The notes below the pieces were generated by a model that saw nothing but the letters and a program-made list of their open reading frames with translations, had not been told where the DNA came from and searched no databases. The translations under genes were made by a program, and so were the position numbers. From NCBI RefSeq assembly GCF_017875735.1, contig NZ_JAGGMZ010000001.1, positions 682,001-746,000 of the forward strand: a stretch of DNA of 64,000 bases, read 5' to 3'. The DNA comes from Arthrobacter sp. CAN_C5 (GTDB lineage: Bacteria > Actinomycetota > Actinomycetes > Actinomycetales > Micrococcaceae). Shown here piece after piece: positions 30,006 through 51,414 of this stretch (within the stretch, counting starts at the first letter, position 1; each line of letters starts with the position of its first letter).

Positions 30006-30023
30006 ATAGAACGAACGGTCAGT
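30006..30023. promoter_or_regulatory. PaaR operator in front of paaJFH
   Basis: ATAGAACGAACGGTCAGT; its reverse complement aligns with the other three copies (37094, 41876, 51397) to a consensus close to ACCGAACGTTCGTTCAGT. It overlaps a TAATAT -10-like hexamer at 30002-30007 and lies about 52 bp before the paaJ start. Confidence 0.75.
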
Positions 30024-30075
30024 AATTGAGCTGGCCGAAGGACTAACAAAATCGCTGATGATTCTGGAGGCAGGC

Positions 30076-31284
30076 ATGGCCGAGGCATTTCTGGTCGGCG
30101 GGGTTCGCACCCCGGTAGGACGCTACGGCGGGGCCCTTTCAGGAGTCAGGCCCGACGATCTGGCGGCGCTGGCGATCCGCGAAGCCGTAACCCGCGCGGG
30201 AATCGACCCCGGGGAAATTGACGAGGTAATCTTCGGCAACGCCAACGGAGCCGGTGAGGAAAACCGCAACGTCGCCCGGATGGCGTCCCTGCTCGCCGGC
30301 CTGCCGGAGACGGTTCCCGGCATCACCGTTAACCGGCTCTGCGCGTCAGGCCTGTCAGCAATCATTATGGCCTCCCACATGATCAAGTCCGGGGCAGCAG
30401 ATATCGTCGTCGCCGGCGGCGTGGAATCCATGAGCCGTGCCCCCTGGGTAATGGAGAAACCCGCCAAGGCCTTCGCTAAGCCGGGCGATGTCTTCGACAC
30501 CTCCATTGGGTGGCGCTTCACCAACCCGATCTTCGCGGCGCAGCACAAGACCACCTACTCCATGCCTGAGACGGCCGAGGAGCTCGCATCGGTCGACGGG
30601 ATCACCCGTGACGAAGCCGACGCCTTCGCCCTGCGGTCCCATCAACGGGCCCTCGCCGCCATCGAGGCGGGCCACTTCCGCGACGAGATCGTGCCGGTGC
30701 CCACCCGTGCAGGCAAGCGGGAGGTCCTCGTCGACACCGATGAGGGTCCTCGCGCTGACACCACGCTCGACGTACTCGCGGGTCTCCGCCCGGTCGTCAA
30801 ACGCGACGGGGTGGTCACGGCCGGCAACTCCAGTTCCCTGAACGACGGCGCCTCCGCTATCATCGTCGCTTCAGAAGCGGCGGTAAACCGACTGGGACTC
30901 GCAGCCCGCGCCCGCATTCTCGATGGCGCATCGGCGGGCGTGCCGCCGGCGATCATGGGCATCGGCCCGGTCCCCGCCACCCAGAAGGTGCTTCAGCGCA
31001 CCGGCCTGGGCATCGGCGACCTCACCGCCGTCGAACTTAACGAAGCCTTCGCCACCCAGTCGATCGCCTGCATCCGCAGGCTGGGACTCGATGAGGAAGT
31101 GGTGAACCGGGATGGCGGCGCGATTGCCCTCGGACATCCCCTCGGCTCCTCCGGATCGCGCCTCGCCATCACCCTGCTGGGCCGCCTCGAACGTGAGGCA
31201 CGCGGCGAGGGACGGGCGATCGGACTGGCGACCATGTGCGTCGGCGTCGGCCAGGGCACCGCAATGCTGCTGGAGCGCGTCTAG
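30076..31284 (+). CDS. paaJ: 3-oxoadipyl-CoA/3-oxo-5,6-dehydrosuberyl-CoA thiolase
   Basis: Final thiolase steps of phenylacetate breakdown, releasing acetyl-CoA and succinyl-CoA. 402 residues. The nucleophile Cys lies in VNRLCASGLSAI near residue 90, the His in GGAIALGHPLGSSGSR and the second Cys in TMCVGVGQGTAML. The sequence AEAFLVGGVRTPVGRYGG is PaaJ/PcaF-like. ATG chosen for the GGAGG Shine-Dalgarno. First gene of paaJ-paaF-paaH. Confidence 0.9.
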   Translation: MAEAFLVGGVRTPVGRYGGALSGVRPDDLAALAIREAVTRAGIDPGEIDEVIFGNANGAGEENRNVARMASLLAGLPETVPGITVNRLCASGLSAIIMASHMIKSGAADIVVAGGVESMSRAPWVMEKPAKAFAKPGDVFDTSIGWRFTNPIFAAQHKTTYSMPETAEELASVDGITRDEADAFALRSHQRALAAIEAGHFRDEIVPVPTRAGKREVLVDTDEGPRADTTLDVLAGLRPVVKRDGVVTAGNSSSLNDGASAIIVASEAAVNRLGLAARARILDGASAGVPPAIMGIGPVPATQKVLQRTGLGIGDLTAVELNEAFATQSIACIRRLGLDEEVVNRDGGAIALGHPLGSSGSRLAITLLGRLEREARGEGRAIGLATMCVGVGQGTAMLLERV

Positions 31285-32027
31285 TGGCTGGGTTCACCAC
31301 GCTGAAGGTGCGCGACGACGGCGACCGCCTCACGGTCCAGCTGCACCGGCCGGAGGTTCGCAACGCCATTGACCAGACAATGGTCGATGAACTGCATGCA
31401 GTGTGCGTCCTTCTGGAGAAAGAGCCCCGGGTCCTGATCCTCGCCGGGAGCAACGGCGTCTTTGCCTCAGGGGCGGATATCGCGCAACTGCGCGAGCGAC
31501 GCCGGGACGATGCCCTTGCTGGTATCAACTCCACCCTGTTCGCCCGGATCGCCCGGCTGCCCATGCCGGTGATCGCCGCGCTCGACGGGTACGCGCTCGG
31601 GGGAGGTGCTGAGCTTGCCTACGCAGCAGATTTCAGGATCGGTACGCCCAGCCTGAAGATCGGCAATCCCGAGACCGGCCTTGGCATCCTCGCCGCGGCC
31701 GGTGCAACGTGGCGGCTGCGTGAGCTGGTCGGCGAGCCGCTCGCCAAGGAGATCCTGCTCGCGGGCCGGATCCTGGGGGCTGACGAGGCGCTCGCCGCCA
31801 GGCTCATCACCGAGATCCATGAGCCAGACGCCTTGCTCCCCGCCGCCAACGCGCTGGCCGTCCGGATCGGACGGCAGGACCCGCTGGCCGTCCGGATCAC
31901 CAAGTCCGTGTTCCATGCCCCGCCCGAAGCCCACCCGGTCATCGACCAGTTGGCCCAGGGAATACTGTTCGAATCCGAGGCGAAGTTCGACCGGATGCAG
32001 GCATTCCTCGACAGGAAGAACAAATGA
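31284..32027 (+). CDS. paaF: enoyl-CoA hydratase/isomerase (PaaF-like)
   Basis: Crotonase-fold hydratase, 247 residues, likely acting on 2,3-dehydroadipyl-CoA. CoA-binding oxyanion segments are FASGADIAQL and ALDGYALGGGAELAYAAD. Both catalytic glutamates of true hydratases are kept (GGGAELA and NPETGLG). The usual PGAGGT is replaced by AAAGAT. GTG start overlaps the paaJ stop by one base. Assignment to PaaF rests on the operon. Confidence 0.82.
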   Translation: MAGFTTLKVRDDGDRLTVQLHRPEVRNAIDQTMVDELHAVCVLLEKEPRVLILAGSNGVFASGADIAQLRERRRDDALAGINSTLFARIARLPMPVIAALDGYALGGGAELAYAADFRIGTPSLKIGNPETGLGILAAAGATWRLRELVGEPLAKEILLAGRILGADEALAARLITEIHEPDALLPAANALAVRIGRQDPLAVRITKSVFHAPPEAHPVIDQLAQGILFESEAKFDRMQAFLDRKNK

Positions 32028-32905
32028 CACCATCACCGGAAACCCCTGACACGGTTCCTATCCCCGACCTCGTCGGCGTCCTGGGCGGCGGCCGGATGGG
32101 GGCGGGTATCGCCCATGCGTTCTGCACGGCGGGTGCCACCGTTGTGGTCGTCGAGCGCGACGGCGACGCCGCCGAGGCAGCCCTCCAACGCGTCCTCGAC
32201 GCACTCGGAAAAAGCGTGCAGCGCGGGACGACGACAGAGACCCTCGACACCCTTTCGGCACGGGTGTCCGTCTCCGTTGACTACGCAGCGTTCGAGTCAT
32301 GCGGGTTGGTGGTCGAGGCGGTTCCTGAGGATACAGACCTCAAGTCAGCCGCCCTCACCGCCGTCGAGGAACGGCTGGCTCCCACCGCGTGGCTGGCGAC
32401 CAACACCTCGTCCCTGTCCGTCAGCGACCTGGCCGAGAGACTGCAGCGTCCCGATCGCTTCTGCGGGCTCCACTTCTTCAACCCGGTGCCCGCCTCAACG
32501 CTCATCGAGGTGGTCCTGGCACGGCAGACATCGGACGAGCTGGCCGTCGCAGCGCGCGGGTGGGTGCAGCAGCTGGGGAAGACCCCCGTCGTCGTGAAGG
32601 ATGCGCCTGGGTTTGCGAGCTCGCGGTTGGGCGTTGCGATCGCGCTCGAGGCCATGAGGATGGTCGAGGACGGTGTTGCCTCGGCCGAGGATATCGACAC
32701 CGCAATGGTACTGGGCTACAAGCACCCGGTCGGCCCGCTGCGGACCACCGACCTGGTGGGTCTCGACGTCCGGCTCGGCATTGCCGAGTACCTGGAGTCG
32801 ACGCTGGGGGAGCGGTTCGCGCCGCCTCAGCTGCTGCGGGACAAGGTGGCCCGCGGAGAGCTGGGCCGAAAGTCGGGCAAAGGCTTCTTTGACTGGACCG
32901 AGTAA
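32024..32905 (+). CDS. paaH: 3-hydroxyacyl-CoA dehydrogenase (3-hydroxyadipyl-CoA)
   Basis: NAD-dependent oxidation of 3-hydroxyadipyl-CoA. 293 residues with a Rossmann motif (GVLGGGRMGAGIAHAF near residue 17), the GLHFFNPVP signature with catalytic His, and the C-terminal HPVGPLRTTDLVGLDVRL. ATG overlaps the previous stop by 4 bases (ATGA), so paaJ-paaF-paaH is a coupled operon. Confidence 0.9.
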   Translation: MTPSPETPDTVPIPDLVGVLGGGRMGAGIAHAFCTAGATVVVVERDGDAAEAALQRVLDALGKSVQRGTTTETLDTLSARVSVSVDYAAFESCGLVVEAVPEDTDLKSAALTAVEERLAPTAWLATNTSSLSVSDLAERLQRPDRFCGLHFFNPVPASTLIEVVLARQTSDELAVAARGWVQQLGKTPVVVKDAPGFASSRLGVAIALEAMRMVEDGVASAEDIDTAMVLGYKHPVGPLRTTDLVGLDVRLGIAEYLESTLGERFAPPQLLRDKVARGELGRKSGKGFFDWTE

Positions 32906-36620: not shown

Positions 36621-36628
36621 CGGATGAC

Positions 36629-37027
36629 CTAGCGGCGGTCGATGATCAGGTTGGTGATCCTCAGGCTGCACAGGCGGGCGCCGTCGTCGTTGGTGAGGAC
36701 CACCTCGTGGGTGGTGAGGGTGCCGCCCAGGTGGATCGGGGTGGCGGTGATCGTGACCAGACCCTCGCGGGCAGACTTGTGGTGGGTGGCTGAGACATCC
36801 ACGCCCACGGCTGTCTTCCCCATGGTGCTCGCATGGATCACGGCTGCCCAGGACCCCACAGCCTCGCCCACGGCGAGGGAAGCACCGCCGTGCAGCAGAC
36901 CGAACGACTGCCGGTTGCCCTCCACCGGCATGGTGGCTACCACCCGCTGAACCGACTGCTCAAGAATTTTCACGCCCATCTTCTCGTCGAGTTCGCCAAG
37001 CTGAATCTGCCAGACCTGATGGGTCAC
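36629..37027 (-). CDS. hotdog-fold acyl-CoA thioesterase (YdiI/MenI-like)
   Basis: 132 residues. QSFGLLHGGASLAVGEAVGS and SATHHKSAREGLV closely follow the E. coli YdiI/YbdB pattern, with the catalytic Glu in VGEAVGS. That family includes DHNA-CoA thioesterases (MenI). It is divergent from paaZ, with which it shares a PaaR operator, so either a phenylacetate-linked salvage thioesterase or the missing menaquinone thioesterase for menB/menE/menA. Distinct from the PaaI at 41337. Confidence 0.85.
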   Translation of the reverse strand: MTHQVWQIQLGELDEKMGVKILEQSVQRVVATMPVEGNRQSFGLLHGGASLAVGEAVGSWAAVIHASTMGKTAVGVDVSATHHKSAREGLVTITATPIHLGGTLTTHEVVLTNDDGARLCSLRITNLIIDRR

Positions 37028-37093: not shown

Positions 37094-37111
37094 ACCGAAC
37101 GTCCGTTCAGT
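37094..37111. promoter_or_regulatory. PaaR operator between paaZ and thioesterase
   Basis: ACCGAACGTCCGTTCAGT, the most symmetric of four copies. It lies 61 bp before paaZ and 67 bp before the divergent thioesterase, so one site may control both. Confidence 0.78.
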
Positions 37112-37171: not shown

Positions 37172-39256
37172 ATGACTTCAACAGCGGTACGCGTTCAGAC
37201 GGTTCCCAGTTTTATCGAGGATGCCTGGTGGACGCCCGACACCAGCTCCCTGACCGACCGCAACAGTGCGGATGTCAGGGATGCCAGCACCGGCGAAACA
37301 CTCGCGGTAGTCAGCACCGAGGGCCTCGACGTCGCCCGGGTGGTCGACTACGCGCGCACCACCGGTCAGCGGACGCTGGGCGAATTCACGATCCACCAGC
37401 GCGCGCTGATGCTCAAGGCGCTGGCGCAGTTCCTCAACGACCAGCGCACCTCGCTGTACGAACTGTCGGCCCGGACCGGTGCCACGAAAATTGACTCGAT
37501 GGTGGATATCGACGGCGGGATCGGGGTGCTCTTCACCTTCGGGTCCAAGGGTCGCCGCGAGCTGCCGAACTCGAACGTGGTGGTGGACGGGCCGCCGGAG
37601 ATTCTCTCGAAGGATGGCACCTTCCTTGGCGAGCACATCTACACCCGGATCCCCGGTGCAGCCGTCCAGATCAACGCCTTCAACTTCCCTGTCTGGGGCA
37701 TGCTGGAGAAGCTGGCTCCTGCCTTCCTGGCCGGAGTGCCGACCATCGTCAAACCGGCTACGCCCACCGGATACTTGACTGCCGCCGTCGTGAAGTTCAT
37801 CATCGAGTCCAACATCCTGCCGAAGGGGGCGCTCCAGCTGATCTCCGGGTCCGCTCGTGACCTGCTGGATTACCTGGACTACCGGGACCTGGTGTCCTTC
37901 ACCGGATCGGCGTCGACCGCCAACAAGCTGAAGTCCCACGACAACGTGGTGCACGGGGGAGTCCGCTTCACCTCCGAAACCGATTCCCTCAACGCCGCGA
38001 TCCTCGGTGAGGACGCCGTCCCGGGCACACCCGAATTCGACGCGTTCATCAAGTCGCTGGTCACCGAGATCACCGTCAAGGCTGGACAGAAGTGCACGAG
38101 CATCCGCCGCACCATCGTGCCCAAGGCGCTGGTGAACGACGTCGTCGCGGCGGCGAAGGAGCGCATTGAGCAGCGCGTCGTCCTCGGCGACCCGCGGGCC
38201 GAGGGTGTCACCATGGGCGCCCTCGCATCGCTGGACCAGCTCAGGGATGTCAGAAGTGCCGTCGAGACGATGATCGCGGCCGGCGGTGAGCTGGCCTACG
38301 GCACCCTTGATGCTCCCCGCGTCACCCGCGCCGACGGCACGGTGGACACCGTCACCGACGGTGCTTTTATGTCCCCGGTTCTCCTGACCTGGGAAAACGC
38401 CGAGGCGATCGAACTGCACACTGTTGAGGCATTCGGTCCGGTGGCGTCGGTGATCGGGTACGACGACGCCGCCCACGCCGTCCGGCTCGCCGCCCTCGGC
38501 GCCGGGTCACTGGTGGCGACGGTCTGCACCAACGACCCCGCCGTCGCCCGCGAACTGGTCCTGGGTATCTCCGCCCACCACGGCCGGGTACTGATGCTCA
38601 ACCGGGAAGATGCCCGCAGCTCCACCGGCCACGGCTCACCCGTGCCTCACCTGGTCCATGGCGGGCCGGGGCGTGCCGGCGGCGGCGAGGAACTCGGTGG
38701 TATCCGCTCGGTCCTGCACCACATGCAGCGCACTGCGATCCAGGGATCGCCGAACATGCTCACCGCGGTGACCGGTGTGTGGCATACCGGGGCCGACCAG
38801 CGGTTCGATGACGCCCACCCGTTCCGGAAAAATCTGGCCACCCTCCGGATTGGGGACGCCGTCCGCTCGGAGCTGCGACAGGTGACCCTCGAGGACATCA
38901 CCGCGTTCGCGAACAGCACGGGGGACACTTTCTACGCGCATACCAACGAGGAAGCCGCGGCGGCCAACCCGTTTTTCCCCGGCATCGTGGCGCACGGGTA
39001 CCTGTTGCTGTCCTGGGGTGCGGGATTGTTCGTCGACCCCGCTCCGGGTCCGGTGCTCGCCAACTATGGGCTGGAGAACCTGCGGTTCATCACCCCGGTG
39101 GCCGCCGGTGATTCGATCCGCGTCACCCTGACGTCCAAGCGGATCACCCCGCGTGAAGACGAAGAATACGGCGAGGTCGCCTGGGATGCGGTGCTGCACA
39201 ACCAGAACGACGAGATCGTCGCCACCTACGACGTCCTGACCCTCGTCGAGAAGTAG
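37172..39256 (+). CDS. paaZ: bifunctional oxepin-CoA hydrolase / 3-oxo-5,6-dehydrosuberyl-CoA semialdehyde dehydrogenase
   Basis: Opens the oxepin-CoA ring and oxidises the resulting aldehyde. 694 residues in two domains: an aldehyde dehydrogenase (about 1-525) with the catalytic Cys in VKAGQKCTSIRRT (about residue 308) and the Glu in RFTSETDSLNAAIL, then a MaoC-type hotdog hydratase (about 535-690) with FYAHTNEEAAAANPFFPGIV and AHGYLLLSW. The ATG at 37172 agrees with family N-termini; longer upstream readings would run through the operator. Confidence 0.95.
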   Translation: MTSTAVRVQTVPSFIEDAWWTPDTSSLTDRNSADVRDASTGETLAVVSTEGLDVARVVDYARTTGQRTLGEFTIHQRALMLKALAQFLNDQRTSLYELSARTGATKIDSMVDIDGGIGVLFTFGSKGRRELPNSNVVVDGPPEILSKDGTFLGEHIYTRIPGAAVQINAFNFPVWGMLEKLAPAFLAGVPTIVKPATPTGYLTAAVVKFIIESNILPKGALQLISGSARDLLDYLDYRDLVSFTGSASTANKLKSHDNVVHGGVRFTSETDSLNAAILGEDAVPGTPEFDAFIKSLVTEITVKAGQKCTSIRRTIVPKALVNDVVAAAKERIEQRVVLGDPRAEGVTMGALASLDQLRDVRSAVETMIAAGGELAYGTLDAPRVTRADGTVDTVTDGAFMSPVLLTWENAEAIELHTVEAFGPVASVIGYDDAAHAVRLAALGAGSLVATVCTNDPAVARELVLGISAHHGRVLMLNREDARSSTGHGSPVPHLVHGGPGRAGGGEELGGIRSVLHHMQRTAIQGSPNMLTAVTGVWHTGADQRFDDAHPFRKNLATLRIGDAVRSELRQVTLEDITAFANSTGDTFYAHTNEEAAAANPFFPGIVAHGYLLLSWGAGLFVDPAPGPVLANYGLENLRFITPVAAGDSIRVTLTSKRITPREDEEYGEVAWDAVLHNQNDEIVATYDVLTLVEK

Positions 39257-39394: not shown

Positions 39395-40003
39395 TCAGGT
39401 GCTGTGGAGCCCGTCGAAGACCATCGTGATGACGTCGTCGGCCAGCTGATCCGGTGACACCGCGCCGCCGGGTTTGTACCACTCGACAATCGAGTTGATG
39501 GTGCCGAACAGCAAGCGGGTGGTGGTGCGTGGGTCGATATCGGAGCGCAGGGACCCCTCGGTGCGCGCGGCGTCCACCAGTGCCGCCACCTGATGGTCGA
39601 AGGCCCGGCGACGTTCCAGGGCGCCGCGCTCCACCTCGGTATTCCCCCGAAGCCTCAACAGCAGGGTCACGAACGGGAGCCGCTCGATCAGCACGGCGAT
39701 GGTGCCCCTCAACACGAACTCCAGCCGGGCGTCTGCCTTGCCCGAGGTGGCGGCTGGATCGGTCAGCACGGCTTCCAGCCCGCCGAGTGCGTGATCGAGC
39801 GCGAGGCGGAGCAGGTCCCCCTTGGAGGGGACATGGTGGTAGATGGCGGACTTGCTGATCCCCAGGTTCTCGGCGAGGATGCCCATCGACGTTGCCTCAT
39901 AGCCGTGTCGGTTGAACACGTCGACGGCGATCGTCAGGACGGTCTGCTGGTCGTAGCCGGGCCGCCCGCGGCGGTTGCCCGTCTGCGGGGAAGCGGTCGG
40001 CAT
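39395..40003 (-). CDS. paaR: TetR-family regulator of phenylacetate degradation
   Basis: 202 residues: N-terminal TetR helix-turn-helix (ATSMGILAENLGISKSAIYHH near residue 37) and a C-terminal ligand-binding domain of the TetR_C_33-like kind. Position in a paaI-paaK-paaR operon, with a palindrome in front of each paa unit, makes it the PaaR repressor (in Thermus and Corynebacterium PaaR releases DNA on phenylacetyl-CoA). It overlaps the paaK stop, so it is autoregulated through the operator at 41876. Confidence 0.88.
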   Translation of the reverse strand: MPTASPQTGNRRGRPGYDQQTVLTIAVDVFNRHGYEATSMGILAENLGISKSAIYHHVPSKGDLLRLALDHALGGLEAVLTDPAATSGKADARLEFVLRGTIAVLIERLPFVTLLLRLRGNTEVERGALERRRAFDHQVAALVDAARTEGSLRSDIDPRTTTRLLFGTINSIVEWYKPGGAVSPDQLADDVITMVFDGLHST

Positions 40004-41340: not shown

Positions 41341-41831
41341 GGGAGGCTCTTTTCTGTCCTGGTGCCGGTGGAGCTGTCGGAGGTTGCGTTGTTGGGCATG
41401 ATGCGTTGCGGATTCGGGATGGTGCGGGACCGCCCACGGAACTCGGCAATCGCACGCGTGCCCTCGCTGTTCTCGGCGGTCACCGAAATGTCGTAGAGAC
41501 CGCTGCGCCCCGCCGACGCGCGGCGGGTGGCGGTGGCAGTCAGTCGGTCGCCGGGCTGCGCGGATGCGAGGAAGGTGATGTCCGCGCCCGAGGCCACCGT
41601 GGCAGTTTCGGTCTTACCGACCGGGTTGCAGGCCAGGGCGAACGCCGAGTCGGCGAACGCAAACACCATCCCGCCGTGAGCTATCCCGAACCCGTTCAGC
41701 ATTTCGTGGCGGAGCGTCATGGTGATCACCGCGTAACCGTCGTCGAGGGCAACGACGTCGATCCCGAGCCAGCGCGAGGCGTGGTCCCGTTCGAGAATCG
41801 GATGCGTGGGTTGGACGCCGGTGTCCGCCAT
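41337..41831 (-). CDS. paaI: phenylacetic acid degradation thioesterase PaaI
   Basis: Hotdog thioesterase of 164 residues that removes dead-end hydroxyphenylacetyl-CoA esters. HGGMVFAFADSAFALACN near residue 50 holds the catalytic Asp region. First gene of paaI-paaK-paaR, directly behind a PaaR operator. A disordered C-terminal tail of about 25 residues (NPQRIMPNNATSDSSTGTR) is longer than usual. Confidence 0.9.
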   Translation of the reverse strand: MADTGVQPTHPILERDHASRWLGIDVVALDDGYAVITMTLRHEMLNGFGIAHGGMVFAFADSAFALACNPVGKTETATVASGADITFLASAQPGDRLTATATRRASAGRSGLYDISVTAENSEGTRAIAEFRGRSRTIPNPQRIMPNNATSDSSTGTRTEKSLP

Positions 41832-41875: not shown

Positions 41876-41893
41876 ACCGAATGTTCATTCAGA
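41876..41893. promoter_or_regulatory. PaaR operator in front of paaI-paaK-paaR
   Basis: ACCGAATGTTCATTCAGA, 45 bp upstream of the paaI start. It has the same spacing and arms as the other three sites. The gap 41832-42170 (339 bp) otherwise holds the CebR boxes and the cebE promoter; nothing is visible at 41894-42060. Confidence 0.72.
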
Positions 41894-42062
41894 TAATCCC
41901 GCGGGCGGGACGGTGTCAAGAGATGACGCACTAGCGGACGGGTCGATGGCGCACCCGCGTGGCCGGACGCGTTCCATGGCGCATAACGATTTGATTACGG
42001 CCGATTCGAGCACGCTCGTCTGACTAGGAGCTTTGGTTCGAAGTGATCCCGAAATGGATCCG

Positions 42063-42076
42063 TGGAAGCGCTCCCA
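42063..42076. promoter_or_regulatory. CebR box 1
   Basis: TGGAAGCGCTCCCA, 13 of 14 bases of the CebR consensus TGGGAGCGCTCCCA. It ends 1 base before the -35 hexamer TTGACA. Confidence 0.88.
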
Positions 42077-42077
42077 C

Positions 42078-42106
42078 TTGACATGAGACGCAGGTCACTC
42101 AAAGAT
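42078..42106 (+). promoter_or_regulatory. cebEFG-bglC promoter
   Basis: A consensus TTGACA (42078-42083), a 17-base spacer and AAAGAT (42101-42106) as a weak -10. It lies exactly between the two CebR boxes, the geometry expected for LacI-family repression. Confidence 0.65.
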
Positions 42107-42118
42107 GAATCAAGAACG

Positions 42119-42132
42119 TGAGAGCGCTCCCA
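42119..42132. promoter_or_regulatory. CebR box 2
   Basis: TGAGAGCGCTCCCA, 13 of 14 matches to the CebR consensus. Centre-to-centre 56 bp from box 1, downstream of the presumed transcription start. Confidence 0.88.
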
Positions 42133-42170
42133 TGACGATTTAGGTCAACACCCGACAAAGGAGTCACCCC

Positions 42171-43463
42171 GTGCACAATCGAGCAAGATTCACCGCACTA
42201 TCAGCCAGCGCAGTTTGCCTGGCCCTCGCCGTCTCAGCCTGCGGTTCCAATTCAGCCCCGGCGGGCAATATCGACGACGCTACCGGCGAGTCAGACGTCA
42301 CCCTCACCGTTGCCACCTTCAACGAGTTCGGGTACGAGGACCTCTTCACCGAATATGAAGAACTCAACGACAACGTCACCATCGAACACAAGAAAGCGGC
42401 GACCTCCAACGAGGCCCGTGATAATCTCACGACCCGCCTCGCCGCAGGATCAGGTTTGTCCGACGTCGAAGCCATCGAGGTTGACTGGCTGGCCGAACTG
42501 ATGGAATTCCCCGACCAGTTCGCTGACCTCGCCGACCCGGCAGTCGACGGCCGCTGGCTGGACTGGAAAACCGAGGCCGCCACTACCCCCGACGGCAAGC
42601 TCATTGGGTATGGCACCGACGTTGGCCCCCAAGCTGTTTGCTACCGGTCCGACCTCTTTGAGGAAGCCGGTCTGCCCACCGACAGGGAGGAAGTCGCAAC
42701 GATGCTCGGCGGTACCTGGGATAGCTACTTCGAGGCTGGCCGGGACTTCGTCGCCGCAAGCGACGGAGTCGCGTGGTTCGATTCGGCGGGAGCCACCTAC
42801 CAGGGCATGATCAATCAGGTCGAAAACGCCTACGAAACTGAGGACGGCACCATCATCGCCGCCGACAACGCTGAGGTTAAGGAGATCTACGAAACGGTTC
42901 TCGCTGCCTCCGTTGACGACAATCTTTCGGCACACCTGGGCCAGTGGAGCGAAGACTGGACCGCAGGATTCCAGTCGGATGCGTTTGCCACCATGCTGTG
43001 TCCCGGCTGGATGCTCGGTGTGATTGAAGGCAATGCCGACGGCGTAGAGGGATGGGACATCGCCAACGTCTTTCCCGGCGGCGGCGGCAACTGGGGAGGA
43101 TCCTATCTGACGGTTCCGGTACAGGGTGAAAACCAGGCCGAGGCCAAGAAACTGGCGGACTGGCTCACCGCACCCGAGCAACAGATCAAGGCGTTCACCT
43201 CGAAGGGAACCTTCCCAAGCCAGGTTGATGCTCTCGAAAGCCCGGATCTGCTGAGCGCAACCAACGAATTCTTCAACGAAGCACCCACCGGCGAAATCCT
43301 TGCCGAAAGGGCTTTGGCCGTGGATGTCACCCCCTTCAAGGGGCCGAAGTATTTCCCGATCAATGATGCGATGCAGCAGGCCCTGACGCGAGTCGATGTC
43401 GATCAGACAGACGACGAGGCATCCTCCTGGGACAAGTTCGTCACCGCGGTCAACGCTCTCTAA
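42171..43463 (+). CDS. cebE: cellobiose/cellooligosaccharide ABC transporter substrate-binding lipoprotein
   Basis: 430 residues, extracellular type 1 solute-binding protein. Lipoprotein signal with lipobox VSAC after residue 20 or so (VCLALAVSACGSN). Domain features fit family 1 sugar binders (LTTRLAAGSGLSDVEAIEV, GAWMLGVIEG-like PGWMLGVIEGN). The GTG has AAAGGAG 7 bases upstream. Behind a double CebR box, so it is the CebE orthologue; ligand specificity is inferred from the operator and the GH1 gene. Confidence 0.9.
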   Translation: MHNRARFTALSASAVCLALAVSACGSNSAPAGNIDDATGESDVTLTVATFNEFGYEDLFTEYEELNDNVTIEHKKAATSNEARDNLTTRLAAGSGLSDVEAIEVDWLAELMEFPDQFADLADPAVDGRWLDWKTEAATTPDGKLIGYGTDVGPQAVCYRSDLFEEAGLPTDREEVATMLGGTWDSYFEAGRDFVAASDGVAWFDSAGATYQGMINQVENAYETEDGTIIAADNAEVKEIYETVLAASVDDNLSAHLGQWSEDWTAGFQSDAFATMLCPGWMLGVIEGNADGVEGWDIANVFPGGGGNWGGSYLTVPVQGENQAEAKKLADWLTAPEQQIKAFTSKGTFPSQVDALESPDLLSATNEFFNEAPTGEILAERALAVDVTPFKGPKYFPINDAMQQALTRVDVDQTDDEASSWDKFVTAVNAL

Positions 43464-43467
43464 CATC

Positions 43468-44451
43468 ATGGCCATCACTGACCGCGGGCTGAAACCAGCC
43501 CCGCCCCGGCGCCCACCAGAGTCAAGGAGGGTCCGGCGAATAGCTTTCTCCCATCGGCTCTCCCACTGGGATGTGAAGTTCTCCCCCTACCTCTACATCT
43601 CGCCGTTCTTCCTCCTGTTCGCCATCACCGGTCTCTTCCCCCTGGGATACACGGCCTGGGTTTCCATTCATAACTGGAACCTGATCGGCGGGCAGGGGGA
43701 GTTCACCGGATTGGAAAACTACTCGTTCGTCCTGTCCCAGCCGTTCTTCTGGAATGCAGTGGGCAATACCTTCAGTATCTTCCTGCTGTCCTCGGTGCCT
43801 CAGGTGGTGGCGGCGCTGGTCATTGCGGCTTTCCTTGACGCCAACCTCAGGGCAAAAACGTTCTGGCGGATGGGGGTCCTGATTCCCTTCGTCGTCGCGC
43901 CCGTTGCTGTTGGTCTGATCTTCAACAATCTCTTTGCTGACCAATTTGGACTGGTCAACGAAATCCTGCGGTTTCTCGGGTTTGAGGGAATCCGGTGGCA
44001 TTCTGATGCCACTGCCAGCCATGTGGCCATTGCCACCATGGTGAACTTCCGCTGGACCGGATACAACACCCTGATCTTCCTCGCCGCTATGCAGGCGATT
44101 CCCAGGGACGTCTATGAGTCAGCAGCGATCGATGGTGCGGGCCGGCTGCGCCAGTTCTTTTCCCTCACGGTCCCAATGCTGCGACCCACAGTAATCTTTG
44201 TGGTGATCACCTCCACCATTGGCGGACTTCAAATCTTTGATGAGCCACGCGTCTTCGACCAGTATGGGCTGGGCGGGTCAGACCGACAGTGGCAGACCCT
44301 CACCATGTACATCTGGGAACTCGGGTGGGGGCAACGCAACTTTGGACGCGCGTCAGCCGTTGCCTGGCTGCTGTTCCTCATCATCGTGCTGATCGCTGTG
44401 CTGAACTTCTTCATCACCCGTCGCATCGCTAACCAGGGAGGTGCCAAGTGA
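43468..44451 (+). CDS. cebF: cellobiose ABC transporter permease
   Basis: MalF-type permease of 327 residues. Six helices, first SPYLYISPFFLLFAITGLFP. The EAA loop is YESAAIDGAGRLRQFFSLTVP. Start ATG lies 5 bases after the cebE stop. It overlaps cebG by 4 bases. Confidence 0.9.
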   Translation: MAITDRGLKPAPPRRPPESRRVRRIAFSHRLSHWDVKFSPYLYISPFFLLFAITGLFPLGYTAWVSIHNWNLIGGQGEFTGLENYSFVLSQPFFWNAVGNTFSIFLLSSVPQVVAALVIAAFLDANLRAKTFWRMGVLIPFVVAPVAVGLIFNNLFADQFGLVNEILRFLGFEGIRWHSDATASHVAIATMVNFRWTGYNTLIFLAAMQAIPRDVYESAAIDGAGRLRQFFSLTVPMLRPTVIFVVITSTIGGLQIFDEPRVFDQYGLGGSDRQWQTLTMYIWELGWGQRNFGRASAVAWLLFLIIVLIAVLNFFITRRIANQGGAK

Positions 44452-45362
44452 GTTCCATACCGTTGATCGCACAGACAGCCGGCAAGGGAGCGGCGAAGGC
44501 TGCCGCCCGTAAGGGCGGCCGCCGACGGCGCCCGGGTCCAGGGGGGACCGGCCGGCGTCCGGGTTTCATCACCTACGGCTTCCTCGGCGCAGTCCTGCTG
44601 GGTTCGTTGTTTCCGCTGTACTGGTCGTTCCTCGTCGGCAGTCACGACAGCACTGTTCTCTCGAGAGGGATCCCCTTAATCCCGGGAGGCAACTTCCTGG
44701 CCAACGCGGCAGAAGTGATGGATAGCATCCCGTTCTGGCAAGCGCTAGGCAACTCCCTGGTGGTGTCCACCGTCACGGCGTTTTCGGTGGTGTTTTTCTC
44801 CACGCTGGCGGGGTTTGCCTTCGCGAAACTGAAGTTCAGGGGCAGCAAATGGCTGCTGGTGTTCGTCATTGCCACCATGGCTGTGCCGACCCAGCTCGGT
44901 GTGGTGCCATTGTTCATCGTCATGTCCAGGTTCGGTTGGACCGGGTCTCTGTGGGCGGTCATCATCCCGGCCCTCGTGACGGCGTTCGGTGTGTTCTGGA
45001 TGACCCAGTACATCAGGGAAGCCCTGCCCGATGAGCTGATCGAGGCGGTGCGGGTGGACGGCGCGTCAATGATCAGGGCGTTCTGGCATGTGGGCCTTCC
45101 GGCCGCGCGGCCCGCCGCCGCCATGCTGGCCCTCTTCACCTTCATGGCCACGTGGACCAACTTCTTCTGGCCGTTCATTGTGCTCGATCCCAGTAACCCC
45201 ACCCTTCCGGTGGCACTGCAGCTACTGCAGGCAGCACACTTCGTCGACTACTCAGTGGTTCTCGCAGGTGCAGTGCTTTCGACCATTCCGCTCCTGCTGG
45301 TATTCGTTATTGCAGGACGCCAACTCGTTTCAGGAATCATGCAAGGAGCAGTTAAAGGATGA
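44448..45362 (+). CDS. cebG: cellobiose ABC transporter permease
   Basis: MalG-type permease of 304 residues. GTG start overlaps the cebF stop. Basic N-terminus (KAAARKGGRRRRPG), six helices, and the EAA loop IEAVRVDGASMIRAFWHVGLP. No ATPase gene is nearby, which fits the shared multi-sugar ATPase MsiK used by Ceb systems. Confidence 0.9.
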   Translation: MSSIPLIAQTAGKGAAKAAARKGGRRRRPGPGGTGRRPGFITYGFLGAVLLGSLFPLYWSFLVGSHDSTVLSRGIPLIPGGNFLANAAEVMDSIPFWQALGNSLVVSTVTAFSVVFFSTLAGFAFAKLKFRGSKWLLVFVIATMAVPTQLGVVPLFIVMSRFGWTGSLWAVIIPALVTAFGVFWMTQYIREALPDELIEAVRVDGASMIRAFWHVGLPAARPAAAMLALFTFMATWTNFFWPFIVLDPSNPTLPVALQLLQAAHFVDYSVVLAGAVLSTIPLLLVFVIAGRQLVSGIMQGAVKG

Positions 45363-46849
45363 CCACTACACCCATCACCTTTCCAGAGGGTTTCCTCTGG
45401 GGTGCAGCCACGGCTGCCTACCAGATCGAAGGGGCGGCCCACGAGGGCGGCCGGCAGGATTCCATCTGGGACGTGTTTTCTCGGGAGCCCGGCGCGGTGG
45501 CCGATGCGCACAACGGTGACATCGCCTGCGACCACTACCACCGGTCGGCTGAGGACGTTGCTCTGATGAAACAGCTCAACCTTCAGGCCTATCGCTTCTC
45601 GACCTCCTGGGCCAGGTGCATGCCGGACGGTGTGACTCCCAACGTCGAGGGAATCGAGTTCTATTCACGGCTGGTGGACCAGCTCGTCGCCGCAGGGATC
45701 AAGCCCTGGCTGACGTTGTACCACTGGGACCTGCCGCAAGCTCTGGAAGCCCAGGGTGGGTGGGCTAATCGTGAAACCGCCTACCGGTTCGCCGAGTATG
45801 CCGCGGTAATGCATGAGGCCCTTGGCGACCGGGTCCGTATCTGGACCACACTGAACGAGCCGTGGTGCTCCGCATTCCTGGGCTATGCAGGGGGAATCCA
45901 CGCGCCGGGACGTCAGGAACCGCGTGCGGCACTGGCGGCCGCGCACCACCTGCTCCTGGGACACGGCCTGGCCGCGCAGGAGCTACGTCGCCGCGACCCA
46001 TCCGTAGAGCTGGGTCTTACCCTGAATCTCACGGTGCCGGATCCTGTGGATCCAGCCAGTGATGCCGACGTCGATGCCGCTCGCCGCATCGATGGCCAGT
46101 TCAACCGGATCTTCCTTGATCCGGTGTTCCGGGGAGAATACCCCGAGGATGTGCTCGACGACGTCCGCCACCTCGGTCTGGACGACTTCATTCAGAGCGG
46201 TGATCTGGCCATCATTGCCGAGCCTCTCGACCTTTTGGGAGTGAACTACTACCACGGCGAGGCAGTCACAGCGTCAGCAGACCCAGCCGATGGCGGCAGT
46301 CAAGCACCGGAGGGGCGGCCTGTCTCGTCACCGTACGTGGCGGCCGACGGGATCCGTTCGATTCCGCGGGGTCTCCCCGTCACCGGGATGGGCTGGGAGG
46401 TGCAACCCGAGGGGCTGCGACGGCTCCTGGGACGCGTCCACCGGGAATACACCGGTCCTGCCGGGATCCCGGTCTATATCACCGAGAACGGGGCTGCTTA
46501 CGACGACCTGCCCGATGACCTCGGTTATGTGGACGACCAGGACCGCTTGGCCTATTTCGAGGCGCACCTGCGCGCCGTGAAGGAGGCGATCAACGATGGT
46601 GCCGATGTCCGCGGATATCTTGCCTGGTCCTTCCTCGACAACTTCGAGTGGGCCTGGGGCTATCACCAGCGTTTCGGTCTGGTCCGGGTTGACTATGACA
46701 CCCAACAGCGGATCCCCAAAGCAAGTGCCCTGTGGTTTTCGCAGGTAGCTAAGACAAACGCGCTACCGCCCTCAGCGCGCTCCATCGATAGTGCCTCCAT
46801 GGAGGGGGCGGCAGGGCCGGGGGAGGTCATGGCAACCGTCCCCCGGTGA
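45359..46849 (+). CDS. bglC: family 1 beta-glucosidase
   Basis: Intracellular GH1 hydrolase of 496 residues that splits imported cellobiose to glucose. The acid/base Glu is in TLNEPWCSAFLGY (around residue 168) and the nucleophile Glu in VYITENGAAYDD near residue 377; DNFEWAWGY is also conserved. GH1 start FLWGAATAAYQIEGAA. ATG overlaps the cebG stop. A 35-residue C-terminal tail (after about residue 461) is low-complexity. Confidence 0.94.
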   Translation: MTTTPITFPEGFLWGAATAAYQIEGAAHEGGRQDSIWDVFSREPGAVADAHNGDIACDHYHRSAEDVALMKQLNLQAYRFSTSWARCMPDGVTPNVEGIEFYSRLVDQLVAAGIKPWLTLYHWDLPQALEAQGGWANRETAYRFAEYAAVMHEALGDRVRIWTTLNEPWCSAFLGYAGGIHAPGRQEPRAALAAAHHLLLGHGLAAQELRRRDPSVELGLTLNLTVPDPVDPASDADVDAARRIDGQFNRIFLDPVFRGEYPEDVLDDVRHLGLDDFIQSGDLAIIAEPLDLLGVNYYHGEAVTASADPADGGSQAPEGRPVSSPYVAADGIRSIPRGLPVTGMGWEVQPEGLRRLLGRVHREYTGPAGIPVYITENGAAYDDLPDDLGYVDDQDRLAYFEAHLRAVKEAINDGADVRGYLAWSFLDNFEWAWGYHQRFGLVRVDYDTQQRIPKASALWFSQVAKTNALPPSARSIDSASMEGAAGPGEVMATVPR

Positions 46850-46883
46850 GCTTCACCGGCGGCCATCGTGTCGTATCCTCTAA

Positions 46884-47972
46884 ATGATGGAAGATCAGCA
46901 GCGACGAACAGAGCGTCTCGGACTTGCCCAGCCGTTGGCTGCCAAGTCCACTCCCACTCTTGAGGATTTGGCGGCGGCCGCCGGCGTGTCCCGGTCGACG
47001 GCGTCGCGCGCCATCAATGGTGGGAGCAGGGTGAGCCCCGAGGCCCAGGCGGCGGTTGACGCTGCTGTTGTCGCCCTCGCCTACACGCCCAACCGCGCCG
47101 CCCGGTCGCTGGTCACCCGGCGTACCTCCTCCATAGCGCTGGTGATTCCCGAACCTGACATGCGGGTCATGATGGACCCGTTCTTTGCGATGGTGATTAC
47201 CGGTGTTACCGAATCACTCAGAGATACCGATGTGCAGATGGTCCTGCTGATGTCGCGCAGCGACGATTCCGCGAGGACCGTCCGCTATTTGCGCGGTGGT
47301 CACGTGGACGGGGCAATCGTGGTCTCTCACCATCAGGGTGACAGTTGGGTTGGTCCACTTGCAGAAAGTGGCCTGCCGATGATTTTCATCGGCAGGCCAT
47401 GGCAGAGCGGTCCGGGCCTGACCTATGTCGACACCGACAATTACGGGGGAGGCATCCAGGCGGCGCGTCATCTGATCGCGGCGGGAAGTAAGCGCCCCGC
47501 CACTATCGCGGGCCCCGCCGATATGACCGCAGCAGTGGACCGACTTCGCGGTTGGCAGGCCGGGCTACGCGAGGCAGGCCTGGCGCCGAGCCCCGTCGAG
47601 TTCGCTGACTTCACCACGGTGGGGGCAGCAGCAGCAACCCGGCGGCTGATGGATGCTGTGCCCGGAACCGACGCCATTTTTGCTGCTTCTGACCTGATGG
47701 CCGTGGGAGCGCTCGAGGTGCTTCGCGATCGTGGCCTGCAGGTGCCCGGCGATGTAGCGCTCCTGGGTTACGACAACCACAGCATTTCAGCCTTGGCCAA
47801 CCCGACCCTGTCCACCATCACCCAACCGATGGCGGAGATGGCAGCAAAGGCGGGTGCCATGCTCCTCGAGGAAATCGAAGCGCCTGGCACCCACCCTGAT
47901 CCGGTCATCTATCCCGCTGAACTGGTGGTGAGGCGCTCCTCGGCGCCCAGTGCGGCGGCCACAAAGGCGTAG
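46884..47972 (+). CDS. cebR: LacI-family repressor CebR
   Basis: 362 residues. N-terminal LacI HTH (TLEDLAAAAGVSRSTASRAI, then NGGSRVSPEAQ) with hinge NRAARSLVTRRT, and a periplasmic-binding-like sensor domain (SIALVIPEPD, then DTDNYGGGIQAARHLIAAG). The two boxes upstream of cebE match CebR, whose effector is cellobiose. No box lies before cebR itself. Its 3' end overlaps the convergent peptidase gene by 64 bases. Confidence 0.9.
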   Translation: MMEDQQRRTERLGLAQPLAAKSTPTLEDLAAAAGVSRSTASRAINGGSRVSPEAQAAVDAAVVALAYTPNRAARSLVTRRTSSIALVIPEPDMRVMMDPFFAMVITGVTESLRDTDVQMVLLMSRSDDSARTVRYLRGGHVDGAIVVSHHQGDSWVGPLAESGLPMIFIGRPWQSGPGLTYVDTDNYGGGIQAARHLIAAGSKRPATIAGPADMTAAVDRLRGWQAGLREAGLAPSPVEFADFTTVGAAAATRRLMDAVPGTDAIFAASDLMAVGALEVLRDRGLQVPGDVALLGYDNHSISALANPTLSTITQPMAEMAAKAGAMLLEEIEAPGTHPDPVIYPAELVVRRSSAPSAAATKA

Positions 47973-50089
47973 TCCCAGGCAACGTCCTTCCATTTCTCGT
48001 ACCGGCCACTGGCGCCGCCGTGTCCGCCGTCCATCTCGGTCTTCAGGAGGATCGGTTCGCTGCCGGTGGTCGTTTCACGGAGTTTAGCCACCCACTTGGC
48101 GGGCTCCACGTACAGCACCCGCGTGTCGTTGAAGCTGGTTACCGCGGCAATCCGGGGGTAGGCGGTCGACTGGATGTTCTCGTAGGGGGTGTATTCCTTC
48201 ATGTACCGGTACACCTCGGGGTCGGTGATGGGGTTGCCCCATTCTTCCCATTCCAGGGCCGACAACGGCAGCTCGGGATCGAGGATGGTGGTCAGCGCGT
48301 CGACGAACGGCACCTGGGCCACGACCGCCCGGTACATTTCGGGTGCAAGGTTGGTGATGGCGCCCATCAGCAGGCCACCCGCCGACCCGCCCATGGCGGC
48401 GATCCGGGCCGGATCAACGAAGGGTGACGCCGCCACGTGGCGGGTGGCGTCCACGAAGTCGGTGAACGTGTTCTTCTTGGTGAGCTTCTTGCCGCCCTCA
48501 TACCAGGTACGGCCCATCTCGCCACCACCCCTGATGTGCGCGACGACGAAGACCACGCCGCGGTCCAGGAGCGAAAGCCGCGAGATGGAGAAGCCGGGAT
48601 CCATGCTGATCTCGTAGCTGCCGTAGGCGTACACCAGCGCCGGGTTGCTGCCATTCGCAGGAAGGTCAGCTCGCCGCAGCACCGAGAGCGGCACCAGGGT
48701 ACCGTCGGTGGCGGTGGCCCATTGCCGCTCGGCCACGTAGTCCTCCGGCCGGTATCCGCCGCGCACCTCGGTCTGCTTGCGGAGCAGCAGGCTGCCGGTG
48801 TCGAGCACATAGTCGTAAACGCGTGGGGGAGTGAAGAACGAGGTGTAGGAGAGCCTGATGATCGGTGAGTCGAACTCCGCGTCGGCCAGGTGACAGGTGA
48901 ACAGCTCCTCATCGAATGCTGGTTCCTCGGGGACGGGCTGGGTGGTGGTCCCGAGCCCCTCGAGCGGGAGCACCTGGACCCGCTCGATGGTGTCCTTGCG
49001 GACAGAGACGACGAGGTGTGTGGAGGTGACGGCGACGCCACCGACGCGGACGGCGTCGTCGTGCTCCACCACGGTCCGCCACTGCTGGTCGGCGAGCGGC
49101 TTCCTGAACTCGGATTCGGCGGCGAGGCTGACCATCGAGTTCTTGGCGTTCCGGTTGTGGGTCAGCACGTAGTGGCGCTCGCCGTCGATCGTCACTGGAT
49201 CCGCCTCGTAGAGCACCTTCTCGCTGCGCGGGATCAGCGTGAGGAGACCGGCGGACGGGTTGGCCAGGTCGAGCACGCGGTACTCGCTGTACTCGGAGCA
49301 GCCGATGCCGATGATGAGCTGCGAGCGGTCGGCGGACAGGTCGAAACCGGTCCACATCGCGACGTCGTCCTCCTGGTACACCACAGCGTCCTGTTCCACC
49401 GGGGTGCCGAGGGTGTGGGACTTGATTTGGTACGGGCGCCACGAGTCGTCGACCACCGTGTAGAACACCTGGGTGCCATCAGGGGAGAATGCCAGGCCGT
49501 AGAAGATGTGGGGCACTACGTCGGGAAGCAGTTCGCCGGTGCGCAGGTCCTTGATCCGCAGGGTGAATCGCTCGTCGCCGGCGTTGTCCTCGCAGTAGGC
49601 CAGCAGGTGCCCGTCCTCGGTGACAGCCAGCCCGCCGAGAGAGAAGAACGGCTTTCCCTCGGCCTCGGCGTTGCCGTCCAGCATGATCTGTTCGCCGTCG
49701 ATCGGCTGGCCCGGGACTATTTCCGGTGGGGTCCAGTCCCTGTTGAGGTCCCCGGTGTCAGCGGCAGCGACCCGGCAGTTGATGGCATACTGTTTGCCCT
49801 CCTCGGTGCGGGCGTAATACCACCAGCCCCGTTTGCGGGAGGGAACCGACAGGTCGGTCTCCTGCGTGCGGTTCTTGATCTCGGTGAAGATGTCCTGCCG
49901 GAGCTTCTCCTGGCCAGCGGTCACGGCCTGGGTGTACTCGTTCTCGGCGGTGAGGTGGGCAACCACCTCGGGGCTTTCCTTTTCCCGCAGCCACTCATAC
50001 TCATCCACGAAGGTGTCCGAATGGTGCACGCGCTCCGTCGGAACCTTCTTGGCGACGGGCGGGGCGGGAAAATGCGTCTCTGCAGTCAT
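47909..50089 (-). CDS. ptrB: S9 family prolyl oligopeptidase / protease II
   Basis: Cytoplasmic oligopeptidase B type, 726 residues. An N-terminal beta-propeller (about 60-440) is followed by the alpha/beta-hydrolase domain: nucleophile Ser in MGGSAGGLLMG (about residue 571), Asp in SFNDTRVLYVEP and His in EMDGGHGGASGRYEK. The ATG at 50089 has GGATGG at a suitable distance; an ATG 9 bases upstream is possible. The C-terminus overlaps cebR antisense. Confidence 0.92.
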   Translation of the reverse strand: MTAETHFPAPPVAKKVPTERVHHSDTFVDEYEWLREKESPEVVAHLTAENEYTQAVTAGQEKLRQDIFTEIKNRTQETDLSVPSRKRGWWYYARTEEGKQYAINCRVAAADTGDLNRDWTPPEIVPGQPIDGEQIMLDGNAEAEGKPFFSLGGLAVTEDGHLLAYCEDNAGDERFTLRIKDLRTGELLPDVVPHIFYGLAFSPDGTQVFYTVVDDSWRPYQIKSHTLGTPVEQDAVVYQEDDVAMWTGFDLSADRSQLIIGIGCSEYSEYRVLDLANPSAGLLTLIPRSEKVLYEADPVTIDGERHYVLTHNRNAKNSMVSLAAESEFRKPLADQQWRTVVEHDDAVRVGGVAVTSTHLVVSVRKDTIERVQVLPLEGLGTTTQPVPEEPAFDEELFTCHLADAEFDSPIIRLSYTSFFTPPRVYDYVLDTGSLLLRKQTEVRGGYRPEDYVAERQWATATDGTLVPLSVLRRADLPANGSNPALVYAYGSYEISMDPGFSISRLSLLDRGVVFVVAHIRGGGEMGRTWYEGGKKLTKKNTFTDFVDATRHVAASPFVDPARIAAMGGSAGGLLMGAITNLAPEMYRAVVAQVPFVDALTTILDPELPLSALEWEEWGNPITDPEVYRYMKEYTPYENIQSTAYPRIAAVTSFNDTRVLYVEPAKWVAKLRETTTGSEPILLKTEMDGGHGGASGRYEKWKDVAWDYAFVAAALGAEERLTTSSAG

Positions 50090-50251
50090 GGAATCCATCC
50101 TGCCAGAGACTCCGGCGTGCAGGTTTCCCCAGGTTCTGCGGCCCACACCGCGTGGCGGGCTGCGACGCGCCGGTCAATGGCCGACGACGGCGGCAGCACC
50201 TGGGGGATCCGGTACGCCCTGGTGGGGTGTCAGAGAGCCGGGGGTTGCGGC

Positions 50252-50956: not shown

Positions 50957-51306
50957 TGGGTGTCTCCGTTCAGGTGGGTCAGTGTCTGGGCGGTGAAGGC
51001 CCGCCAGTCGGTGGCTTGCTGAGCCAGCTCGGCGCGGCCGGCGTCGGTGAGCGAGAAGTACTTGCGGCCCGGGCCGCCGTCCCCGGCTCGCCACTCGGTG
51101 GTGACCAGCTGTGCCGCTTCGAATCGGGTCAGCAGGGGATACAGGGTGCCGCCCTTGATCGAGCCCAACCCCGCTTCCGCCAGGGCGGCGGCAATCGCGT
51201 AGCCGTAGGTGGGTCCGCCGTCGAGGACCTTGAGCACACTCATGCCGAGTACGCCCCGCATCCACTCGCTGGGCCATTGTTTGTCAGTCACGTGTTTGTC
51301 AGTCAC
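50953..51306 (-). CDS. PadR-family transcriptional regulator
   Basis: 117 residues: a winged helix (EWMRGVLGMSVLKVLDGGPT, then YGYAIAAALAEAGLGSIKGGTLYPLL) with the PadR signature. The first codons lie in a perfect tandem repeat of a 15-mer (51278-51292 and 51293-51307), so two GTG starts 15 bases apart are equally likely. Probably autoregulates; no repressor site identified. Confidence 0.88.
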   Translation of the reverse strand: MTDKHVTDKQWPSEWMRGVLGMSVLKVLDGGPTYGYAIAAALAEAGLGSIKGGTLYPLLTRFEAAQLVTTEWRAGDGGPGRKYFSLTDAGRAELAQQATDWRAFTAQTLTHLNGDTQ

Positions 51307-51369
51307 GGCTATATAGTTGCACTAACTAGTCAGGCTGTCTACCTAGTTCGAGGATAACTTCACTGACTG

Positions 51370-51399
51370 TTGACTGTCCGGTGGCCGTCCCGATATCCT
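51370..51399 (+). promoter_or_regulatory. paaABCDE promoter
   Basis: TTGACT (51370-51375), an 18-base spacer and TATCCT (51394-51399). The PaaR operator begins inside the -10, as expected for repression. Confidence 0.6.
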
Positions 51400-51414
51400 G
51401 AACGAACGGTCGGT
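51397..51414. promoter_or_regulatory. PaaR operator in front of paaABCDE
   Basis: CCTGAACGAACGGTCGGT; the reverse complement ACCGACCGTTCGTTCAGG matches the copy upstream of paaZ at 15 of 18 bases. It overlaps the -10 and start region. Confidence 0.78.

Follow-up and report, generated by a model that had tools for sequence, protein, structure and literature searches.

Operator-like sites before the phenylacetate gene units of Arthrobacter sp. CAN_C5 and a probable PaaR regulon

Organization of the paa units and their operator-like sites

The phenylacetate (paa) genes of Arthrobacter sp. CAN_C5 were analysed in a stretch of 64,000 nucleotides (contig NZ_JAGGMZ010000001.1, positions 682,001 to 746,000, forward strand), which is called the window here and to which the coordinates refer. 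Four units, paaJ-hydratase-paaH, paaZ with a divergent thioesterase gene, paaI-paaK-tetR and paaABCDE, are each preceded by an operator-like site (S1 to S4), and the tetR gene, called paaR below, codes for a candidate repressor that would read them. A preliminary description of the window had proposed the four sites at these positions, 45-75 bp in front of the units; all of them were read in the sequence there, at 44-66 bp from the gene starts, which were taken as likely:

30006 to 30023, forward strand: operator-like site S1, 52 bp before paaJ (ATG at 30076)
37094 to 37111, reverse strand: operator-like site S2, common to the divergent paaZ (60 bp) and thioesterase (66 bp) genes
41876 to 41893, reverse strand: operator-like site S3, 44 bp before paaI (paaI-paaK-paaR operon)
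51397 to 51414, forward strand: operator-like site S4, 55 bp before paaA (ATG at 51470)

The genes of the units were assigned with protein family models, as follows:

30076 to 31284, forward strand: paaJ-type thiolase (best model 3-oxoadipyl-CoA thiolase, below cut-off)
31236 to 32027, forward strand: enoyl-CoA hydratase family, paaF/G-like (below cut-offs)
32024 to 32905, forward strand: paaH-type 3-hydroxyacyl-CoA dehydrogenase (below cut-offs)
36629 to 37027, reverse strand: EntH/YdiI-like hotdog thioesterase, divergent from paaZ (4HBT; NCBIfam)
37172 to 39256, forward strand: paaZ, bifunctional aldehyde dehydrogenase/hydratase (TIGR02278 above cut-off; Pfam)
39395 to 40003, reverse strand: paaR, TetR-family repressor of 202 amino acids (PF00440 and PF17932 above cut-off)
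40003 to 41340, reverse strand: paaK, phenylacetate-CoA ligase (TIGR02155 above cut-off)
41337 to 41831, reverse strand: paaI, hotdog thioesterase (TIGR02286 above cut-off)
51470 to 52474, forward strand: paaA, epoxidase subunit (TIGR02156 above cut-off)
52475 to 52822, forward strand: paaB (TIGR02157 above cut-off)
52558 to 53643, forward strand: open frame holding paaC (TIGR02158 above cut-off; match from residue 127)
53658 to 54215, forward strand: paaD (TIGR02159 above cut-off)
54216 to 55388, forward strand: paaE (TIGR02160 above cut-off)

In a common orientation, the sequences are TAGAACGAACGGTCAGT for S1, CTGAACGAACGGTCGGT for S4, CTGAACGGACGTTCGGT for S2 and CTGAATGAACATTCGGT for S3. 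The single consensus that had been proposed for them held in part: a window scan with ACCGAACGTTCGTTCAGT at up to three mismatches returned S2 (one mismatch), S3 (three) and S4 (two) with no further match, where 0.02 matches were expected and three were reached in none of 100 shuffles. S1, which lies in the opposite orientation, differs from ACCGAACGTTCGTTCAGT at four positions (counted by hand) and was therefore outside the scan list, the limit being three. All four sites, in one orientation, fit the degenerate 15-mer GAAYGRACRKTCRGT, and when matrices were built with one site left out in turn, each left-out site was among the top four positions of the 64-kb window, with a wide margin for S2, S3 and S4.

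The predicted operator is an 18-bp pseudo-dyad, ACYGAMCG-NN-CGKTCRGT. Across 109 distinct sites, the best dyad centre was 9.5, between positions 9 and 10 of ACTGAACGA/ACGGTCGGT, with 0.638 of the positions complementary, followed by 0.599 at 11.5; one of these sites is a perfect palindrome.

Distribution of the 15-mer in the genome and in relatives

The 15-mer is not frequent elsewhere in the genome: its 3,860,921 bases hold exactly four exact matches, which are the four named sites. Thirteen further matches were found at one mismatch, 10 of them inside a coding-like frame by a rough check (among them L096, which also lies 63 bp before another frame) and three (L092, L098 and L100) with no such frame around them. 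When further regulon members were sought through these 13 sites, no convincing new target was obtained.

In a set of 117 genomes (the present one and 116 relatives), the 15-mer was matched at 124 sites in 70 genomes, compared to four matches for a control with the 15-mer reversed. The sites lie mostly in paa regions (112), where 64 are within 420 bp upstream of a paaA profile match (63 genomes), 16 are before paaZ and 32 are no further than 25 kb from paaA, paaZ or the thioesterase gene. The 12 sites elsewhere consist of one before a thiolase gene (G057), eight inside open frames, two between divergent genes (loci L152 and L153) and one at 79 bp before a gene for a luciferase-like monooxygenase. 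In one relative, G029, an exact 15-mer (L144, 3829-3843) lies 21 bp before a gene for an S9 prolyl oligopeptidase; such a gene is also found near paaA in the window (47909-50146), with no 15-mer match beside it.

Conservation before paa genes

In the same 117 genomes, paaA (TIGR02156) was found in 83 and the TetR protein (E ≤ 1e-20) in 80. The preliminary description had named the presence of the motif in related paa clusters as a point on which the regulon could fail, and the motif was found there: of the 67 paaA genomes in the same family, 63 have an exact site at 0-420 bp in front of paaA, and in 60 of these the profile match is no more than 175 bp away. Outside the family, a matrix site scoring at least 12 was present in 9 of 16 paaA genomes, and some of these clusters carry the perfect 18-bp palindrome ACTGACCGATCGGTCAGT. 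The paaA genomes in which paaR was not found at E ≤ 1e-20 (G085, G102 and G108) have no site at paaA, with scores of 1.8, -0.2 and 1.2 (L055, L066 and L058). A control with random segments was taken from loci consisting mainly of paa promoters and contained real sites; therefore, its percentiles were not used.

Loci from named records (the best 80 of 587) were also used; they come from Arthrobacter, Paenarthrobacter, Pseudarthrobacter, Sinomonas, Citricoccus, Cryobacterium, Microbacterium, Amycolatopsis and other genera, some being from genomes already included above. As these loci were chosen by paaR, they are silent on the rest of their genomes. A site was counted here at a matrix score of at least 15, and one between divergent genes was counted for both. 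With these rules, 153 of 162 sites were found no more than 260 bp ahead of a paa gene or of the gene for the thioesterase. A site at that distance precedes paaA in 38 of 42 cases, paaI in 62 of 71, paaZ in 40 of 63, paaJ in 18 of 24, the thioesterase gene in 21 of 22 and paaR in 10 of 80, and it is found once or never before the other genes (paaB 0/38, paaH 0/41, paaK 1/72, enoyl-CoA hydratase 1/37).

The TetR protein and autoregulation

The TetR protein carries a TetR_N domain (PF00440) and a TetR C-terminal ligand domain (PF17932), both above cut-off. The closest protein with a solved structure is SCO3833 from Streptomyces (2iai; E 2e-51, or 1.6e-78 by profile), which is named there just as a putative transcriptional regulator, and the closest named relative of the TetR protein among the best 80 of 587 records is from Arthrobacter sp. 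H20 (94%). There is no second close member in its own genome, where the next best match has an E value of 2.5e-6. A search of that genome for PaaX (PF07848) gave no match at E ≤ 0.001, with a model that matched 5 of 14 controls, three of them above cut-off.

The gene is the third of paaI-paaK-tetR, faces paaZ and lies beside paa genes in relatives also. A paaD-paaF-tetR operon was reportedly described in Arthrobacter oxydans CECT386 by Navarro-Llorens in 2008. In the window, tetR overlaps the end of paaK by ATGA, and therefore S3 would govern paaR as well; no operator lies at the paaK/paaR junction itself. In a sister species (L137, 7400-7540), the junction of the paaK stop and the paaR start is covered by an additional operator, and in L138, L165, L166 and L168 a site lies 11-12 bp before the estimated paaR start. 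In all six loci in which paaI-paaK was not found ahead of paaR (L159-L164), a separate site lies 14-27 bp before paaR. The proposal that a TetR gene within the paaI-paaK operon would repress itself is thus supported by the sites that stand before paaR itself in several relatives.

Promoter-like elements around the sites

Two promoter-like elements were recognized next to the sites; the hexamers are consensus matches and not mapped starts:

41891 to 41919, reverse strand: TTGACA-N17-TTATCT, found by eye, with the second hexamer overlapping S3
51370 to 51399, forward strand: TTGACT-N18-TATCCT, found by scan, with the second hexamer overlapping the left end of S4

The promoter scan gave no match at paaI; TTATCT at S3 is missed because the scan rule demands an A at position 2 of the second hexamer. 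In a table of upstream rows from relatives, TTGACA predominates ahead of the paaI site, and TTGAC was seen by eye at a similar distance in 7 of the 13 paaA rows listed; rows of this table with large negative distances, from paaJ and paaZ matches cut by the locus ends, were artefacts and were ignored. Overlap with -10-like hexamers had been claimed for the first and the last site, which was borne out for S4; at S1, TAATAT was seen by eye on its own, without a clear -35. The paaZ operator is located a few bases (about 9 bp) beyond a likely -10 hexamer, TANNNT, also read by eye, and because the thioesterase gene starts on the other side, both divergent promoters could be controlled by a single operator. 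The sites have a conserved AT-rich flank, GTAAT.

The paaI site follows a variant, CCTAATGAACATTCGGT, which is the consensus of 54 distinct rows; S3 of the window is closer to the general form. This less symmetrical variant recurs before the paaI operon in Arthrobacter kin (L122, L137, L140, L206 and others), and the paaA site is near the consensus; perhaps the two forms allow graded repression.

Comparison with known PaaR systems

The published systems are compared here from excerpts of the papers cited. TetR-type PaaR repressors that respond to acyl-CoA are described in Thermus, Burkholderia and Corynebacterium (PMC9493321), and a review table gives a putative PaaR site, AACGA-N4-TCGGT, for Streptomyces pristinaespiralis (SSDG_03033; PMC10933834). 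The PaaR of the latter is likewise a TetR repressor of paa genes, and its putative motif is exact in S4 and has one mismatch at each of S1-S3; at one mismatch, it matched nine places in the window compared to 3.45 expected, nine being reached in 1 of 100 shuffles. This system differs in belonging to another genus, and its PaaR is discussed for the supply of pristinamycin precursors (PMC10933834). By its description in PMC9493321, PMC10933834 and PMC13186573, which cite Chen et al. 2012, the PaaR of Corynebacterium glutamicum is likewise an actinobacterial TetR repressor of a paa cluster.

In Burkholderia cenocepacia K56-2, PaaR is likewise a TetR repressor, with inverted repeats in several paa promoters, between the putative -35 and -10, and paa-specific matrix matches (PMC2770484), but its operator, ACCGACCGGTCGGT, differs and does not clearly select the four sites. 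In the window, ACCGACCGGTCGGT matched S1 with three mismatches and S4 with two, S2 and S3 were not listed at three, and the best match was a non-site at 49845; with 14 matches compared to 7.60 expected, it did weakly better than chance as an independent site finder and was set aside for that use. PaaR of Thermus thermophilus HB8 (TTHA0973), whose effector is acyl-CoA (PMC9493321), likewise represses paa operons including its own as a TetR protein (PMC6651687), and its consensus, AACnAACGTTnGTT, differs in being a species-specific form that is not required of the PaaR family. With AACnAACGTTnGTT, the four sites were found at two to three mismatches among 10 window matches, compared to 8.98 expected, which is no better than chance, and it too was discarded as a site finder. 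A comparison with known PaaR sites, suggested earlier with Corynebacterium and Thermus in mind, thus failed for the Thermus consensus, the published Streptomyces motif fitting better. Within the genus, the paa clusters of A. oxydans CECT386 contain homologues of PaaI, PaaK and the epoxidase subunits (PMC3534580). In the excerpts obtained by searching the literature for Arthrobacter, PaaR and phenylacetate, no operator work on an Arthrobacter PaaR was seen.

Proposed circuit and alternative explanations

The sites, their specificity and conservation, the arrangement of the genes and the families of their proteins were observed directly. By analogy with the PaaR proteins that have been studied, from which DNA binding, repression and the ligand are inferred, PaaR would bind the 18-bp pseudo-dyad in the promoter of each of the four paa units. 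The operator would overlap a -10-like hexamer at paaA and paaI and would stand between two divergent starts at paaZ. PaaK would turn phenylacetate into phenylacetyl-CoA, which would bind PaaR, release it from the operators and so induce the pathway, and with paaR in third place of an operon that is itself repressed, the circuit would be autoregulated. The TetR protein is very probably PaaR, a repressor of all four paa units and of itself that is released by phenylacetyl-CoA.

Several points weigh against this proposal. The 15-mer and the matrix were built from the four sites, so their match to these sites follows from how they were made, and the independent tests are the relatives and the leave-one-out matrices; the relatives share descent, S1 passed the leave-one-out narrowly (15.0 compared to 14.7 for the next position), and the 109 sites of the dyad analysis were selected with a matrix built from the same four. 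AACGA-N4-TCGGT at one mismatch also occurs in five other places of the window. Four of the 67 family genomes with paaA have no exact upstream site, their diverged sites scoring 18.8-23.1, and in 3 of the 63 that have one (G006, G027 and G029) it lies 265-375 bp from the paaA match; the site counted in G006 is nearer to a divergent paaJ, and its paaA has a site with a one-base variant (L105). Outside the family, the exact site was found in none of the 16 paaA genomes, four of which with paaR (G074, G087, G092 and G103) score below 10 at paaA. Finally, two of the three genomes without PaaR are incomplete or fragmented (G108 is 73% complete and G085 is in 450 contigs).

The sites could also be read by another regulator, either a different TetR protein or one of the PaaX type, the tetR gene being just a neighbour. 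Eight more TetR-like matches are present in the genome at E ≤ 1e-3, and L152 and L153, from genomes without a PaaR match, each have one 15-mer between divergent genes (at about 3733 and 3838); those of L152 code for an ABC-2 permease and a TetR protein of a different kind (Pfam), with the same layout in L153, and a similar word may therefore be recognized by another group of TetR proteins. However, the sites track paa genes and precede paaR itself in some relatives, all three paaA genomes without a paaR match are also without a site, PaaX is unmatched in the genome and the motif is that of the putative Streptomyces PaaR, all of which make a different reader improbable. Still harder to credit is that the repeats are a shared core promoter (a -10 and start region) with no operator. 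The overlap of S4 and, by eye, of S3 with -10-like hexamers would fit such an origin, as would the conserved GTAAT flank, whereas the absence of any other exact 15-mer in the genome, the pseudo-dyad in the conserved core and the position of the paaZ site beyond its likely -10 do not.

Control by PaaR therefore stays the preferred explanation, and the Arthrobacter regulon is a well-supported and well-conserved case of a known control circuit. Arthrobacter and its family thereby gain a PaaR regulon that is supported by sequence, and the operator matrix can be used in annotation; a specialist would have expected the regulon, and the thioesterase is a testable extra.

The divergent thioesterase

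The gene that shares S2 with paaZ codes for a protein of 132 amino acids with a 4HBT fold. Its best models are EntH and MenI, both with cut-offs far above its score, and the window copy has HGGAxxxxGE where PaaI has HGGxxxxxAD. Its subfamily, taken as the upper 53 genomes of the match list (56-99% identity, cut by hand), is present in 53 of the 117 genomes, 52 of which have paaA; a further 31 paaA genomes are without it. The association with paaA has a Fisher value of 3.4e-10, or 0.005 within the family, uncorrected for kinship, and weaker relatives (37-60% identity) are also found in genomes without paaA. Of the 52 copies that were placed, 29 stand divergent to paaZ at 400 bp or less, another 19 are at 30 kb or less, and the remaining four are elsewhere. 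The gene is divergent from paaA in L103 and from paaR in L108, there with a weak site of 14.2; in all six loci L159-L164 it lies apart from paaZ, with no site of at least 15.

Therefore, the thioesterase is linked to the paa pathway and often, not always, to the operator, and it probably belongs to the PaaR circuit. The earlier suggestion that it may be part of the regulon is strengthened by the 52 of 53 genomes with paaA and by the operator before 21 of 22 copies in the named records, with L159-L164 as exceptions. That the enzyme is a mere bystander, serving menaquinone synthesis (MenI-like) or proofreading (EntH-like), is unlikely. EntH and MenI are its best models, although far below cut-offs, and its separation from paaZ and from any site in L159-L164 also agrees with such a role; against it stand the subfamily's co-occurrence with paaA (its weaker relatives occur also in genomes that have no paaA), the many copies divergent from paaZ, and the operators upstream in the named records, whose loci were chosen by paaR. 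The MenI role in particular was considered and disfavoured.

Normally, the shunt product of PaaZ is hydrolysed by PaaY (PMC11110157), which is reportedly scarce in actinomycetes (PMC13186573), in the excerpts of both sources. As a tentative conjecture, for which we see the smaller share of the chances, the thioesterase might be the Micrococcaceae substitute for PaaY under a shared PaaR operator, induced in step with PaaZ and freeing CoA from 2-hydroxycyclohepta-1,4,6-triene-1-carboxyl-CoA when the PaaZ dehydrogenase lags. PaaY (TIGR02287, gamma-carbonic-anhydrase fold) was above cut-off in none of the 117 genomes, 108 of which had weaker matches, and in none of 14 controls either. Two points speak against the conjecture: a PaaY homologue, TrlF, hydrolyses the shunt product in some tropolone-making actinobacteria, according to the excerpt of PMC11110157, and a distant PaaY-family protein is encoded in the genome itself, outside the paa region (156.6 bits; cut-off 319.6). 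The thioesterase may solve the problem of CoA trapping by the paa pathway in actinomycetes, with their reported scarcity of PaaY (PMC13186573).

Neighbouring genes and other observations

Between paaI-paaK-paaR and paaABCDE, the window holds a sugar-type ABC transporter, a GH1 beta-glucosidase and a LacI-type regulator (42067-47972). Two AGCGCTCC words (42067 and 42123) lie before the first gene of this stretch and are perhaps LacI operators. A gene for an ABC-F ribosomal protection-like protein (28255-29910), with TlrC/CarA/OleB/SrmB as its best model at a score under the cut-off, ends shortly ahead of the paaJ operon. The 18-mer AGTGATGGAGCGTTCGGT is present at least 10 times in the genome (for example, at C1:196654, 251424 and 336790), possibly within an insertion sequence. 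Among the named records, L199, titled Vibrio cholerae strain 35D (WNZI01000012), contains an Arthrobacter-type paa cluster and looks mislabelled.

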